From Pseudomonadota bacterium (lineage in GTDB: Bacteria; Pseudomonadota; Alphaproteobacteria; Micavibrionales; Micavibrionaceae): DNA of 32,620 bases. The position numbers and the translations under genes were made by a program. The notes beneath the pieces are model-generated. The model made no database searches and was not told where the DNA came from. It was given only the letters and a program-made list of their open reading frames with translations. The stretch spans positions 1 to 32,620 of the forward strand of contig CAUJHN010000015.1 in the NCBI GenBank assembly GCA_963204825.1, in the 5' to 3' direction. This document shows, piece after piece, positions 11,743 to 31,930 of this stretch. Positions within the stretch are counted from its first letter, which is position 1, and every line of letters begins with the position of its first letter.

Positions 11743-12321
11743 ATGAATATCATCGTGATCGGGCCGCCGGGCGCGGGCAAGGGAACGCAGGCGAAAATCC
11801 TTGAGGCAGAATATGGCTTGAAGCAACTATCGACGGGCGACATGCTCCGCGCGGAAATCGCGGCCGGATCGGATCTTGGTAAAAAAGCGAAGGCGCTGAT
11901 GGATGCCGGGGAGCTTGTACCGGATGATGTTGTTATCGGCATGATTGCGAACCGCATCGCGCAGCCGGATTGCGCCAAAGGCGTAATTTTCGATGGATTT
12001 CCCCGCACGGTGGAACAGGCGAAAGCGCTCGATAAAATGCTCGGCGAAAAGGGTAAGCCGATCAAGGTTGTGATTGAATTCGCGGTGAATGAGGAAGAGC
12101 TGGTGAACCGCCTCCGCACCCGCATTCAACAAACGATCGACGCGGGGCAGCAAGTGCGGGGTGATGACAACGAAGAAACCCTGCGCAACCGTTTAAAAGT
12201 TTTCCGCGAACAGACGGCGCCGATTATCCCTTATTACAAGGGGACGGGCCTCCTCAAAACGGTCGACGGCATGCTGCCCATCGACCATGTGACGCAGGCG
12301 ATTAAGGCGCTGTTGAAGTAG
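11743..12321 (+). CDS. adk: Adenylate kinase, short-LID form
   Basis: It catalyses ATP + AMP to 2 ADP in the cytoplasm. The P-loop GPPGAGKGT is at residues 7-15, the AMP-binding region at about 31-60 (STGDMLRAEI), DGFPRT at 84-89 and the LID arginine/aspartate motif RGDDNEET at 139-146. At 192 residues the protein lacks the long LID and the zinc cysteines seen in some bacteria. Short forms at this locus are typical of Alphaproteobacteria. It is coupled to secY. Usually rpsM follows directly, but here an unrelated gene comes between. Confidence 0.97.
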   Translation: MNIIVIGPPGAGKGTQAKILEAEYGLKQLSTGDMLRAEIAAGSDLGKKAKALMDAGELVPDDVVIGMIANRIAQPDCAKGVIFDGFPRTVEQAKALDKMLGEKGKPIKVVIEFAVNEEELVNRLRTRIQQTIDAGQQVRGDDNEETLRNRLKVFREQTAPIIPYYKGTGLLKTVDGMLPIDHVTQAIKALLK

Positions 12322-12338
12322 GCTGCACGCAGGCAATA

Positions 12339-12386
12339 TTGGTTAATAAAATATAAATTGACATAATGCATAACTTTGTATAGCTT
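12339..12386 (+). promoter_or_regulatory. Two overlapping candidate promoters upstream of the orphan gene
   Basis: TTGGTT (12339-12344) and CATAAT (12362-12367) are 17 bp apart, and the -10 box matches at five of six positions. A perfect TTGACA (12358-12363) overlaps that -10 box and pairs with TATAGC (12379-12384) at a short 15-bp spacing. The region is very AT-rich compared with its surroundings. Either would give the next gene its own transcript independent of adk. Confidence 0.5.
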
Positions 12387-12392
12387 CCGGGC

Positions 12393-12417
12393 AAATCGAC
12401 GATCGATTTCAGGAGGT
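12393..12417 (+). promoter_or_regulatory. Hairpin directly before a strong Shine-Dalgarno
   Basis: AAATCGA (12393-12399) and TCGATTT (12403-12409) are exact reverse complements around a 3-base loop. One base later comes AGGAGGT (12411-12417), an almost full anti-16S match, and the GTG start is at 12424. The hairpin does not cover the ribosome site. It could protect the 5' end, block upstream translation read-in or bind a regulator. Confidence 0.6.
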
Positions 12418-12423
12418 GTTGTT

Positions 12424-13479
12424 GTGAGTGATAAGCCAGAAAATTCCTATAAACTTACGCCCGTTGGCGAGGCAAGAGAATTTCGTGTTTCAGAAGATAT
12501 GGGCTTTGAAGTGCCTCAGGCTGATGGCACTTCTGCAAGGGAACCAAGAACGGTCGTTAGCTGGGAAGAACGATACCCCTTTGCCGTTGATGAAGTTTTG
12601 GAAGCTCTTCGTCAAGAATATGGACGTGCGATCGCTCTGCTCGAGGATCTTGATTCAGATCTTTTTCATGAGCCGATGGATGCGGCGGATGCAATTTTTT
12701 TCGGATCACGTGAAGAGCAACAGCAGGGCGCGGTTGCAGAATTAACTGAAAAATATAGCGCTGTAACGCAGGCGCTGGGCCAGCGTCAGGATAGACAAAT
12801 CTATCTTCCAGTCAGCTTTGCGGAAGCAGCAGCATACGAGATGGAAGCGCCGTTGTTAACGGCTGTTATGCTGGCTTTGGATTTAAAAGAACAAGATATG
12901 ACGTATTACAAAGAGCGTTTGGCTAAAGAGGCAGGGCTGCAAGATACTTTCGGTGCCATCGCCGCCATCGCTGCTCAAATGCCACCCACGTTTGGTTTGG
13001 AAGATTTTGCTGAAACACTGGAACCTTGTGGTCCAATGGTGGTTGTAACAACGGAAAAAATCAGATGTAGTCCAGAGGACGAAGCAGCTCGCTTAAGAGC
13101 AATTTTTGAGGACGCCGATGACCCGCCGCCTGTAATACAGGAGGGGCAAGAAGTTCGTTTGCCGTATCCAATAGACCGGGTTTTGGAAGCGGTTGAAGCA
13201 GAAGCCGATCAGGCTGTTGCATTTTACCAGCAAAATCCTCAACTGGATCCAGGTGGTATGAATGCACAATTTACACATGGAACCAAAGAAGAGATCTTGT
13301 CAGTCTTATCCAAAGCGAGAGATGCAGGAGTCCCAGAAGTATGGTTGGCACTTAAGCCAAACTCTGATCCTAATCACCCACCAATGAGGGTGTTCAGTAC
13401 CGTCTTCCATAACATGCTTCTTTCAGGACAAGACCGTTTTCTTGAGCCGCCAGGCAGTGCTGGCCCGGCAATGGGTTAA
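12424..13479 (+). CDS. Unrecognised 351-residue acidic protein with three internal repeats
   Basis: I do not recognise a family. The GTG at 12424 is preferred to an in-frame ATG at 12376 because AGGAGGT lies 6 nt before it. The protein is acidic and mainly helical in pattern, with no signal peptide or membrane segment. Three related segments occur at about residues 51-75 (YPFAVDEVLEALRQE), 128-153 (LPVSFAEAAAYEMEA) and 247-269 (LPYPIDRVLEAVEAE): an aromatic/Leu-Pro start, then an Ala/Glu helix ending in a hydrophobic stretch. Repeats 1 and 3 are the clearest pair. The gene interrupts the conserved adk-rpsM junction, is more AT-rich than its neighbours and has its own promoter-like sequence, which suggests later insertion. 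Function unknown. Confidence 0.85.
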   Translation: MSDKPENSYKLTPVGEAREFRVSEDMGFEVPQADGTSAREPRTVVSWEERYPFAVDEVLEALRQEYGRAIALLEDLDSDLFHEPMDAADAIFFGSREEQQQGAVAELTEKYSAVTQALGQRQDRQIYLPVSFAEAAAYEMEAPLLTAVMLALDLKEQDMTYYKERLAKEAGLQDTFGAIAAIAAQMPPTFGLEDFAETLEPCGPMVVVTTEKIRCSPEDEAARLRAIFEDADDPPPVIQEGQEVRLPYPIDRVLEAVEAEADQAVAFYQQNPQLDPGGMNAQFTHGTKEEILSVLSKARDAGVPEVWLALKPNSDPNHPPMRVFSTVFHNMLLSGQDRFLEPPGSAGPAMG

Positions 13480-13530
13480 CAGCGTTAATTTCTAGCTGTA
13501 AAACAGGTTTTTTTGCACCCAAAACACTTG

Positions 13531-13559
13531 TTGACACAAGGGGTTAGAGTTCCTATATT
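13531..13559 (+). promoter_or_regulatory. Strong sigma-70-type promoter for the rpsM-rpsK-rpoA-rplQ operon
   Basis: TTGACA (13531-13536) is a perfect -35 box. TATATT (13554-13559) is a five-of-six -10 box at the ideal 17-bp spacing. A start near 13566 would leave a leader of about 115 nt before rpsM. This is the best-matching promoter in the window and agrees with the need to restart transcription after the inserted gene. Confidence 0.85.
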
Positions 13560-13595: not shown

Positions 13596-13654
13596 CTTAT
13601 AAGCATTTGATTTATAAGGCTTTTTGATGGTGTAGGGTCTGGAATTACGGACCC
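13596..13654 (+). promoter_or_regulatory. Structured 5' leader of the alpha operon: two hairpins
   Basis: CTTATAA (13596-13602) pairs with TTATAAG (13612-13618). GGGTCTG (13635-13641) pairs with CGGACCC (13648-13654) through seven pairs, one of them G-U, around a 6-base loop. The second hairpin ends 17 nt before the AAGGAG of rpsM. In E. coli the alpha-operon leader is a pseudoknot bound by S4. No sequence match to it is seen, and rpsD is not in this operon. Confidence 0.45.
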
Positions 13655-13681
13655 GTTTAATATGATCAAAAAGGAGAAACT

Positions 13682-14062
13682 ATGGCTCGTATTGCAGGGG
13701 TTAACGTACCCGACAACAAACGCGCGCTCATCGCCCTGACCTATGTGCACGGCATTGGACGCTTTTCAGCACGTCAAATCTTGAAAGAAGTCGGCATCGA
13801 CGAAACACGCCGCATGAACTCGCTGACCGAGGATGAGCTGAACGCCATCCGTTCGCTGATCGATTCAGACAAATACATGATCGAAGGCGACCTGCGCCGC
13901 GAAATCGCGATCAACATCAAACGCCTGATGGACATGGCCTGCTACCGCGGCATCCGTCACCGCAAACACTTGCCTGTTCGCGGCCAACGCACGAAGACCA
14001 ACGCCCGCACGCGTAAAGGTCCTGCGAAGCCGATCGCCGGTAAGAAACAAGTGACGAAATAA
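13682..14062 (+). CDS. rpsM: 30S ribosomal protein S13
   Basis: S13 forms inter-subunit bridges with the 50S and contacts P-site tRNA. The 126-residue product begins [20 protein letters not shown] and contains the helix-two-turn-helix segment [20 protein letters not shown] at about residues 21-40. The C-terminal signature [20 protein letters not shown] is followed by [14 protein letters not shown] lies 7 nt before the ATG. It is the first gene after the strong promoter. Confidence 0.98.
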
Positions 14063-17586: not shown

Positions 17587-19800
17587 ATGGAAATTGCGAG
17601 TCTGAGCGCTGCCTTTGATGAAAGCGGGGATTTCCCGGGTGTCGCGCTGTCCGCGAAAGACTATGTTCATGTTCCGGGATGGCCGTCACTGGAAGCCTTT
17701 TTGAAAGGCGATCTGGGCATAACATCCCGCCGGGCACTGGAATCATTCCGGAATTTTTACAATCAATACTTAAAGCGTTTCCCTGTCCATTATTTTTCCG
17801 GGCAGACAATCCCCGGCATTGAATTTGCGCTGTTTTTTCCCATCCGTCTTGCCAATGACAAACATAAAAGTGCCTATTACCTAGTGGCCATGGGACATGA
17901 TAACAAGCGAATGGTCCTGTTTCATAGAAACATGCCGAACCAGATGCGCACCCGCACCAATTTTTACTACCTGACAAAAAAATGGAAGGAGATGGGAGCA
18001 CCCGAAGAGAGTTACAGAACCAATATCAAGGATATTTTATATGTATGTGAAAATCCCGAAGACTTGATAGCGAAGCGGAAAAAGGCGCTCCCCTCCTACC
18101 TGAAAAAACTGCAGTACAGGCTGAAAAAACAAAATCTGGCTTATCCTTTTGAAGGGAAATGGGATCGCATCCAAAAGTATCTGGAAGACCGAGACCGGGA
18201 GTTCATCTGCAAAATAACGGCACGCATGAAAAGCGAGCATGTCGATTTCGAAGTGGCAAAAAAGGCCGCGGAAATATCCGACAGCAATCTGCATATCTAC
18301 AACTGGATCATGGCGGGCGGCAGTCCTGCTGCAGTTCGTAACCGTATGCAGGTCGTAGAAGTTTATCCGTGGCTTGCACAGGCGCTTGCCATAGAAGACG
18401 AAAGACGCTCCCGACACAGTTATCAGAAGGAACAAGCCGTGCCGCTTTCCGATGTTGCGGTCGCGTATGCCGAATGCGAACGCGCCATTGATGAGGGGGA
18501 GCGTCTCCCGCCTGTAATACAGGATGTTCTTACGGAACATACCGGCGGCGTGGATGTCAGCCAGTCTGCCATTCGAAAGACAATGGGGCTTCGGCTGCGC
18601 CGTGATTTAAGGGAGCCTGCAATACTGGGGAAGGTGCTGCACGATGTCGGAAGATATCTGGACTTTCTGGATTTGAAAGAAGGCGATCTGGAAGTTATTC
18701 ATGATGTACAGAAAGAAGGCGCGCGCGGGTTCAGCTCCTTCAATACGAATTTTGCGGAGATGCTTTCACATGCGCCGCCGGATCTTCGTGAAGCGATGAT
18801 GGGTCCAAAAAGCATGCACGAAACGGCGCGCGATATTGCCAATACCGCCGACTATATGCATCAGGTTTATGCGCGCCTGGTCCTTCCTTATTTCGCGTAT
18901 GAAGCCCACAGGCGCAACACGCATGGACTTTCGCTTGCCGTGCAAGGATATCTGAACGGGACTATGTGGGAGGAATCATTCGAACGCCATGACGATGCTT
19001 TTGGCAGGCTACCGCCGTACCTTCGCTCTTTTGGCAATATGCGCACGCACAACATAGTGAAGCTGAGCGTAGAATGGCACAAAGCGCTGGGCCGGTATTC
19101 TGCCAGCATGCGCGGCGTAGAAGTGCCAAGGGAAATTTCATGGCCGGCGCTCCTCTACCGTCCGGTTGTCGCGCCCAACGATATAGTAATAACCTGCCGG
19201 AACTCCAAAAAGGCGTTGGAAGAAGAACATCGTATTATGGGGCACTGCATCGATGGCTATACAGCCCATTGCCTTGGTCTGGTGGATAAGCCGGGAGAAG
19301 AAAGAAAATACGTCCATATCGTTCATCTGGCAGCCAAGAACGACCCGAGGATTAAGGCAACCTTTGCCGTGGAAGAGCCGTTCAACAGCAAAGGCCCGCG
19401 GCGGGTGAGTGCCGGCCCGATGGACGGAATTCGCATTAGAAAAGACACCTGGAATGTCCCGACGGCGAATTCGCCTGTCTGGGCCGCGGCGCGCTGGCTG
19501 GTAGAAGGCATTAACGATGGTTCCTTGAAGGTAGACTGGGAGCGCATAGATCAGCAGCGTCGCGGCATGAAATACGAAACCATTTCGGCGCAAACCGGCT
19601 TTGATCCGACCGTATGGGAGAACTGCGTTGAATCTTATCGAATATTCCGGCCCTTCCTGCCGGAACGCTTTCGCCATTACGTCTACGAAGCATGGGTTGA
19701 AAAAATGGGATTTGCACGGGATGCCGATGTTCTGTTCCGGGAAGGGGCGGATCTTTCGCTTCTCCATCTGAACCGGCTGGAATATGCCCCCGGCGGCTAA
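17587..19800 (+). CDS. Large PcfJ-like domain protein, function unknown
   Basis: A 737-residue soluble protein. The segment at about residues 535-625 resembles the PcfJ-like domain: SKKALEEEHRIMGHCIDGY with M551, H553 and C554, then VHIVHLAAKNDPRIKATFAV. PcfJ was named from an Enterococcus conjugative plasmid, but related proteins occur on chromosomes and their biochemical role is not known to me. The first 400 residues are rich in charged helices and long basic patches (KKALPSYLKKLQYRLKKQN), which could bind nucleic acid. AAGGAT at 17575-17580 precedes the ATG by six bases. No conjugation or mobile genes lie nearby. Assignment rests on motif resemblance only. Confidence 0.75.
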   Translation: MEIASLSAAFDESGDFPGVALSAKDYVHVPGWPSLEAFLKGDLGITSRRALESFRNFYNQYLKRFPVHYFSGQTIPGIEFALFFPIRLANDKHKSAYYLVAMGHDNKRMVLFHRNMPNQMRTRTNFYYLTKKWKEMGAPEESYRTNIKDILYVCENPEDLIAKRKKALPSYLKKLQYRLKKQNLAYPFEGKWDRIQKYLEDRDREFICKITARMKSEHVDFEVAKKAAEISDSNLHIYNWIMAGGSPAAVRNRMQVVEVYPWLAQALAIEDERRSRHSYQKEQAVPLSDVAVAYAECERAIDEGERLPPVIQDVLTEHTGGVDVSQSAIRKTMGLRLRRDLREPAILGKVLHDVGRYLDFLDLKEGDLEVIHDVQKEGARGFSSFNTNFAEMLSHAPPDLREAMMGPKSMHETARDIANTADYMHQVYARLVLPYFAYEAHRRNTHGLSLAVQGYLNGTMWEESFERHDDAFGRLPPYLRSFGNMRTHNIVKLSVEWHKALGRYSASMRGVEVPREISWPALLYRPVVAPNDIVITCRNSKKALEEEHRIMGHCIDGYTAHCLGLVDKPGEERKYVHIVHLAAKNDPRIKATFAVEEPFNSKGPRRVSAGPMDGIRIRKDTWNVPTANSPVWAAARWLVEGINDGSLKVDWERIDQQRRGMKYETISAQTGFDPTVWENCVESYRIFRPFLPERFRHYVYEAWVEKMGFARDADVLFREGADLSLLHLNRLEYAPGG

Positions 19801-30628: not shown

Positions 30629-31930
30629 TTATCGGATAATGGCGCCTTGCGTCAACGCGTCTTCAAGATTGGAGCCGGAGAGGTTTGCGCCGGTTAAATC
30701 CGCGCGGCGGAGATCGCATCCGGTCAGGTTGGTATTCGACAGGTCTATACCCATCAAAATGGAATCACGCAGGTCGCAATCCCGCAGGTTGCAGAATTTT
30801 AAAGAGGCCCCGCTTAAGTTCGCGCGTTGCATGCGAACGCCATGCCCTTCCGGTGTGTCAAATTTAATGGGACCGAAATTTACCCCGGTTAAGTCTGCGC
30901 GCGTAAGCTGCGCGCCCTTTAAAGACGTTCCCCTGAAATCCGCCCGCGCAAGGGTACAATCGCGAAAGTCGCTGTAATCTAAAATCGCGCTCTGAATATT
31001 TGCCTTTTCCAGGTGAAGGCCGAGGAATGTTGCCTTTACGGCGCGAACGGCCGTAAGCGGGTATTCGAACAGGTTTTTTATATCACGCAGGTCGAACCCG
31101 CTTAAATCCATCTGATGCCCTTCTTTTCCGCCGGTTGCAATCCAGCGTTTATGGACACTGAGCATTTCTATAAGGGTTTGTTCGCCGCGCTGGAGCAGTT
31201 TACCCATAGCCTCGTCTTTGACGGCGTTTTCAATGATGGAGTCCTGCAATTCCGTGTTCCGCAGAATAATGCCTGTCAGGATGGTATTCGACAGATTTGC
31301 GCGGGTAAGATCCGATCCGGATAAATCCGCTTTCGTTAAATTTGCGCCGTCAAAGTTCGCTCCGGAGAGGTTTGCCTTGTTTAATACGACGCCGCTGAGA
31401 TCCGCATCGGCAAAATCGGCGGAAATGGCTTTCACGCTATTCATGGTGGTGTCGGCCATTTTTGCGCCTGTGAAGACGGCGTGATCCGGTTTTCCCTTGG
31501 GAAAATTGGGAAGCAGCTTGTTGATCAGGGTGCCGAATTCGCCCCGTTCCATTATTTTACCTTCACGCATGTCCGCGGAGTCCAGATTTGCGCCGGACAG
31601 ATTCGCCCCGGCCAGATGCGCGCCTCTGAAATCCGCGCGGTTCAACACGGCGTTGGTTAAATCCGCGCCGCGAAGATCGCAGGAAAAAAAACATGTGCCG
31701 CTGAATGTCCCGCCGGAAAAGTTGCAACGTGAAAAATTGCAGCCTGTGAAATCGGCTTGCGATAAATCCCGGCCCACGAAAGAAAGCCCGGAGAGATCTG
31801 CGAATTTCAAGCAGGCGCGCGCGCCGCCGCGGCGTCCTTTGATAAACGATTCATGCTTCGCAATAAGCGCATCCAGATCATGTTGCGTATAGCGGCGGAA
31901 CTCGTTTTCTGGGATGGTTGTATCCTGCAT
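30629..31930 (-). CDS. Pentapeptide-repeat protein
   Basis: A 433-residue protein built mostly of A(D/N)LxX repeats that fold into a right-handed beta-helix. Residues 1-40 are a helical cap (YTQHDLDALIAKHESFIKGR, then RGGARACLKFADLSG). Repeat blocks cover about residues 42-120, 150-235 and 275-428, with two helical breaks at about 121-150 and 236-275. No signal peptide or enzyme domain is visible. Known members include DNA-mimic gyrase inhibitors and proteins of unknown role, and nothing here shows which. It follows pgi by 24 nt. Confidence 0.93.
   Translation of the reverse strand: MQDTTIPENEFRRYTQHDLDALIAKHESFIKGRRGGARACLKFADLSGLSFVGRDLSQADFTGCNFSRCNFSGGTFSGTCFFSCDLRGADLTNAVLNRADFRGAHLAGANLSGANLDSADMREGKIMERGEFGTLINKLLPNFPKGKPDHAVFTGAKMADTTMNSVKAISADFADADLSGVVLNKANLSGANFDGANLTKADLSGSDLTRANLSNTILTGIILRNTELQDSIIENAVKDEAMGKLLQRGEQTLIEMLSVHKRWIATGGKEGHQMDLSGFDLRDIKNLFEYPLTAVRAVKATFLGLHLEKANIQSAILDYSDFRDCTLARADFRGTSLKGAQLTRADLTGVNFGPIKFDTPEGHGVRMQRANLSGASLKFCNLRDCDLRDSILMGIDLSNTNLTGCDLRRADLTGANLSGSNLEDALTQGAIIR

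Follow-up and report, generated by a model that had tools for sequence, protein, structure and literature searches.

In Gammaproteobacteria, the Alpha_RBS element is a structured ribosomal-protein leader (r-leader) of the S4 type that lies directly 5' of rpsM. S4 leaders 5' of rpsM are known as well in Clostridia and Fusobacteriales (PMC7247131). Our literature searches uncovered neither a description of an alphaproteobacterial rpsM leader nor any account of the adk-rpsM junction. Here, we analysed a 32,620-nucleotide stretch of DNA (the whole of which is called the window) from a member of Micavibrionaceae; among named organisms, Micavibrio sp. UBA7689 is closest to it (L033, with adk 78% identical). 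We consider it likely that an orphan gene confined to this species arrived, probably by a lateral route, at the boundary between the secY-adk and rpsM (alpha) operons, where the rpsM operon's own promoter and leader would make the site tolerant. What is new at this locus is the candidate r-leader without a Rfam match and the seam marked by it, the insertion of an orphan gene being an ordinary kind of event.

The adk-rpsM junction in the window

A 351-codon gene with a GTG start and a strong Shine-Dalgarno sequence had been noted between adk and rpsM by the first-pass annotation, and it is readily seen in the sequence. The features of the region, all on the forward strand, are as follows:

11743-12321, +, adk, the final conserved member of the secY-adk unit, 5' of the insert (translation; 59 of 61 family genomes match)
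12322-13520, +, inserted segment, missing from the sister species G001 (blastn of junctions; homology to G001 resumes at 13521)
12411-12416, +, Shine-Dalgarno sequence AGGAGG, with the GTG 7 nt downstream (sequence)
12424-13479, +, orphan gene, 351 aa, acidic and mostly helical product (GTG start to stop)
12535-12645, +, repeat copy A, residues 38-74, ending ERYPFAVDEVLEALRQEYGRAIALLE (self-alignment with shuffles)
13114-13230, +, repeat copy B, residues 231-269, ending VRLPYPIDRVLEAVEAEADQAVAFYQ (self-alignment with shuffles)
13531-13559, +, putative rpsM promoter TTGACA-17-TATATT (11/12), its position conserved across the family
13621-13676, +, predicted structured leader of rpsM, its helix pairing 13635-13641 to 13648-13654 (model R1, 64.1 bits; covariation; distribution)
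13682-14062, +, rpsM, which heads the alpha operon (rpsM-rpsK-rpoA-rplQ)

Elsewhere in the window, a 737-aa ORF adjoining the ribosomal cluster (17587-19800) appears PcfJ-like by eye (GHCIDGY motif), and a gene on the minus strand adjoining mutL (30629-31930) codes for a 433-aa pentapeptide-repeat-like protein.

The nearest sister species, which belongs to the same genus (G001), carries an empty site with an adk-rpsM spacer of 174 bp, while a second congener (G002) has a different spacer of 793 bp. The absence of the segment from the sister species agrees with the description of the gene as inserted. Comparison of the flanks of the insert revealed no shared repeats of 7 bp or more, so no duplicated target site, and no integrase gene was recognised near the orphan gene. 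The window is a metagenome contig, and misassembly at the ends of the insert is possible. In the G002 insert (L113, at about junction bases 580-630), an interspersed-repeat-like sequence, CATTGCGAGGAACATCGTGACGAAGCAATCC, was observed on the minus strand beside an orphan ORF.

Coding potential, composition and internal repeats of the orphan gene

The orphan ORF is coding and not accidental, as indicated by its codon periodicity, its codon score and the probability of its open frame. The stop-free frame, which opens at 12376 and extends over 367 codons, has a chance probability of about 1.6e-9 at its composition; GC content at codon positions 1, 2 and 3 amounts to 0.66, 0.41 and 0.38, and the in-frame codon score exceeds that of each of the five other frames. 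When compared with 175 genes of at least 150 aa sampled across 230 kb of its own genome, the gene shows a GC3 of 0.38 against a mean of 0.58 (sd 0.07), the fifth lowest value, which bears out the earlier remark on its AT-richer composition and, as expected of a laterally acquired ORFan, suggests recent acquisition. Alternatively, relaxed selection or the youth of the gene, rather than transfer, might account for this low value. The acidity of the product was likewise correctly noted, with a pI of about 4.3, a charge of -34 and the fourth most negative charge per residue among the sampled genes.

The best off-diagonal self-alignment of the protein pairs residues 38-74 with 231-269 at a score of 58, which was attained by 1 of 300 shuffled sequences (mean score 35). 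The first-pass annotation had proposed three related segments; the first and third are related by this alignment, and the middle one (residues 128-153) matches neither of them (p 0.97 and 0.62), which reduces the claim to two. Thus, the evidence supports two copies of a strand-helix module rather than three, with duplication holding for two segments only. In the low-confidence structure model, copy B forms a strand followed by a helix.

Search for relatives and possible function of the orphan protein

The protein had been called unrecognised, and searches of profiles, of phage, plasmid and viral sequences, of the PDB and of genome samples yielded no convincing relative. It had no matches in NCBIfam, PHROGs, PADLOC or PDB and none above the cut-off in Pfam, and none among phage and plasmid records or viral and GTDB contigs, these contig scans extending to close relatives only. 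No homologue was found in the genus sample, in 104 family genomes or in 142 order genomes (the source plus 103 and 141 others, respectively), nor in the class (385 genomes) and phylum (398 genomes) samples, two weak matches (G120 and G876) being set aside. The G120 match is spurious, its alignment crossing a stop into a response regulator, and that in G876 is too weak (E 4.7e-4, 20 bits, part of a 608-codon frame), which leaves the protein without homologues beyond its species, as for laterally acquired ORFans. Low E-values against designed consensus TPRs arise from summing over near-identical repeats, with no individually significant TPR stretch in the protein, and a match to CPT_N (E 0.06-0.08) was dismissed. 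Structure prediction without relatives gave a pLDDT of 39.8 for the full length; the C-terminal 120 aa reached a pLDDT of 62 and a pTM of 0.58 with a strand-helix-helix-strand-helix order. Foldseek of the models matched no fold, the best E being not under 2.5.

Tentatively, and at somewhat less than an even chance, we propose that the product is a soluble, acidic, cytoplasmic partner-binding protein with a duplicated strand-helix module. The lineage includes the obligate predator M. aeruginosavorus ARL-13, in which the attack-phase genes of highest expression are mostly hypothetical (PMC3189940), and the product might be an effector or attachment factor serving a predatory or host-associated life; this is unlikely here, as no signal peptide is evident by eye and searches of the 103 other family genomes yielded no homologue. 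The strong negative charge and atypical composition would also suit an acidic inhibitor derived from a phage or other element, such as a DNA or RNA mimic of the anti-defence type. This origin appears quite improbable in view of the blank phage, plasmid, viral, PHROG and PADLOC searches and of neighbouring genes among which no element genes were recognised. Furthermore, 351 aa is long for acidic mimic inhibitors. A cytoplasmic partner-binding protein stays our preferred, if tentative, reading of the product, with the acidic mimic inhibitor and the predation effector as its chief competitors.

Predicted promoter and structured leader of rpsM

In nearly every junction of the family, a sigma70-like promoter 120-240 bp 5' of rpsM is followed by a conserved leader, promoter and terminator calls in this work being consensus matches only. 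The leader consists of GUNUA 5' of a 7-bp helix, a loop whose length ranges from 6 to about 70 nt and that usually ends in UUA, and a G..GAAAU-like sequence on the 3' side. Over 25 distinct sequences the helix was paired in 100% of 175 cells, a percentage biased towards the helix since the sequences were picked around it, and four pairs showed two-sided changes. Covariation is the stronger measure: it amounted to 0.542 vs 0.229 for shuffles and was lost when the partner was slid. The leader of the window folds better than its shuffles (z -2.9).

A covariance model detected the leader once per genome in 74 of 135 order genomes (families f1, f5 and f7), and in 3 of 289 genomes of the class-wide sample, all of them Micavibrionaceae. 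At each of the ten loci examined it lies directly 5' of rpsM. Rfam gave no gathering matches in the whole window, and at the junction a chance match only. The stretch 13621-13676 thus combines a covarying helix with a place in the untranslated 5' region of a ribosomal-protein operon, as expected of r-protein leaders, and is probably an autoregulatory leader of this kind.

Variation of the junction across Micavibrionaceae

Linked adk and rpsM genes are separated by 174-345 bp in 31 of 48 family genomes and by 759-1483 bp in the other 17 (45 genomes from extracted regions, and G020, G031 and G054 measured separately). It had been claimed that nothing normally lies at this site; this holds for other sampled Alphaproteobacteria, with spacers of mostly 106-256 bp, and for the nearest sister, but not for the family itself with its 17 inserts. 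Gaps of more than 400 bp were found at 27 of 66 adk-rpsM loci (some genomes counted twice), compared with 3 of 83 at secY-adk, 0 of 59 at rpsM-rpsK, 0 of 55 at rpsK-rpoA and 1 of 41 at rpoA-rplQ. The contents of the large gaps are mutually unrelated and differ in strand, length and family: adenylate-kinase paralogues (G019, G032, G036, G037 and G101), an Ntn-hydrolase-like protein (G021 and G023) and a rhodanese-like ORF (G037), both assigned by eye, and orphans on either strand (G000, G002, G024, G029, G040/G041, G045 and G048), with no long ORF in G004. At five loci (L114, L115, L123, L138 and L143), a diverged second adenylate kinase with about 27-44% identity to the adk of the window was observed directly 3' of adk. 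The second adenylate kinases at the seam suggest a recurrent or ancient duplication of adk. The orphan gene itself is absent at this site from all relatives compared.

It is highly improbable that the gene was inherited vertically and evolved fast, the other inserts being its orthologues diverged beyond recognition. The site is shared and several inserts are as well low-GC3 orphans, e.g., one of 189 aa with a GC3 of 0.40 in G029; against this stand the variety of strand, length and family among the inserts (adk paralogues, Ntn-hydrolase-like, rhodanese-like), none of which is tied to the orphan protein by blastp at E 0.01, and the spacers of just 174-190 bp in the close relatives G001, G103 and G003.

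In at least six family genomes adk and rpsM are unlinked. In G015 a single contig carries both genes at a distance of about 857 kb (C1:269312 and 1127088), and in G016, G035, G064, G065 and G083 they are on separate contigs, the unlinking in G016 resting on likeness to its congener G015, as its adk contig stops 0.8 kb past adk. Some Micavibrionaceae carry the secY-adk block and the rpsM-rpsK-rpoA block at different places in the chromosome. All six of these genomes retain the promoter and leader in front of rpsM; in G057, where the two genes also lie on separate contigs, the leader was not recognised.

A probable boundary that takes in genes

Acquisition at a tolerant operon boundary accommodates these observations. 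Since rpsM keeps its promoter and leader where it is unlinked from adk, and since the orphan gene lies wholly 5' of that promoter, the flanks are most simply regarded as separate transcription units. With its own promoter and conserved 5' leader in front of rpsM, the adk-rpsM site would tolerate insertions; new DNA may settle 5' of the promoter and leave both flanking units unchanged. The first-pass annotation had regarded the gene as an unusual insertion into a conserved operon. This judgement does not stand, because the insert falls between what are most simply two transcription units, 5' of the rpsM promoter and leader, at a boundary of separately controlled blocks that often gains genes or is dissolved in the family, so that the presence of the orphan there is ordinary.

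No terminator-like sites were found between adk and the orphan gene, which is therefore probably read as a distal cistron of the secY-adk transcript; a weak promoter of its own, with TTGACA at 12358, is possible from the sequence. Downstream of the gene, the fold of a potential terminator was no better than shuffles (z -0.36).

An extended proposal, to which we assign an even chance, holds that an undescribed r-protein leader (GUNUA-hairpin-G..GAAAU) controls the rpsM operon in the order, that such autonomy makes adk-rpsM a recurrent landing site and that the orphan founds a new protein family. Under the boundary reading itself, the S10-spc-alpha cluster in Micavibrionaceae is not one unbroken unit, the adk/rpsM seam with its independent promoter and leader gathering new genes, and its empty and occupied sites may serve as a natural series for studying how orphan genes settle.

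Comparison with known systems

That the orphan product is a distant DinB-superfamily protein is scarcely credible: DinB_2 (PF12867) matches residues 44-99 at E 0.0027, yet with 18.6 bits against a curated cut-off of 24.8, with an alignment confined to positions 58-122 of the 128 in the profile, roughly half of it, and with a single histidine by eye in the matched stretch where the family has a metal-binding triad. The likeness to DinB_2 is thus a weak similarity, below the cut-off, partial and devoid of the histidine pattern expected of a DinB fold.

The orphan gene resembles lineage-specific ORFans acquired between transcription units in its lack of homologues, its atypical GC3, its position between units and the empty site in the sister species. 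It differs from them in having its site within the S10-spc-alpha ribosomal cluster, where gene order is normally among the most conserved. With the S4-type r-leaders of Clostridia, Fusobacteriales and the Alpha_RBS type, the Micavibrionales leader shares a structured element directly 5' of rpsM; unlike them, it is a hairpin restricted to the order among the samples covered, without a Rfam match, and detected in a single copy per genome.
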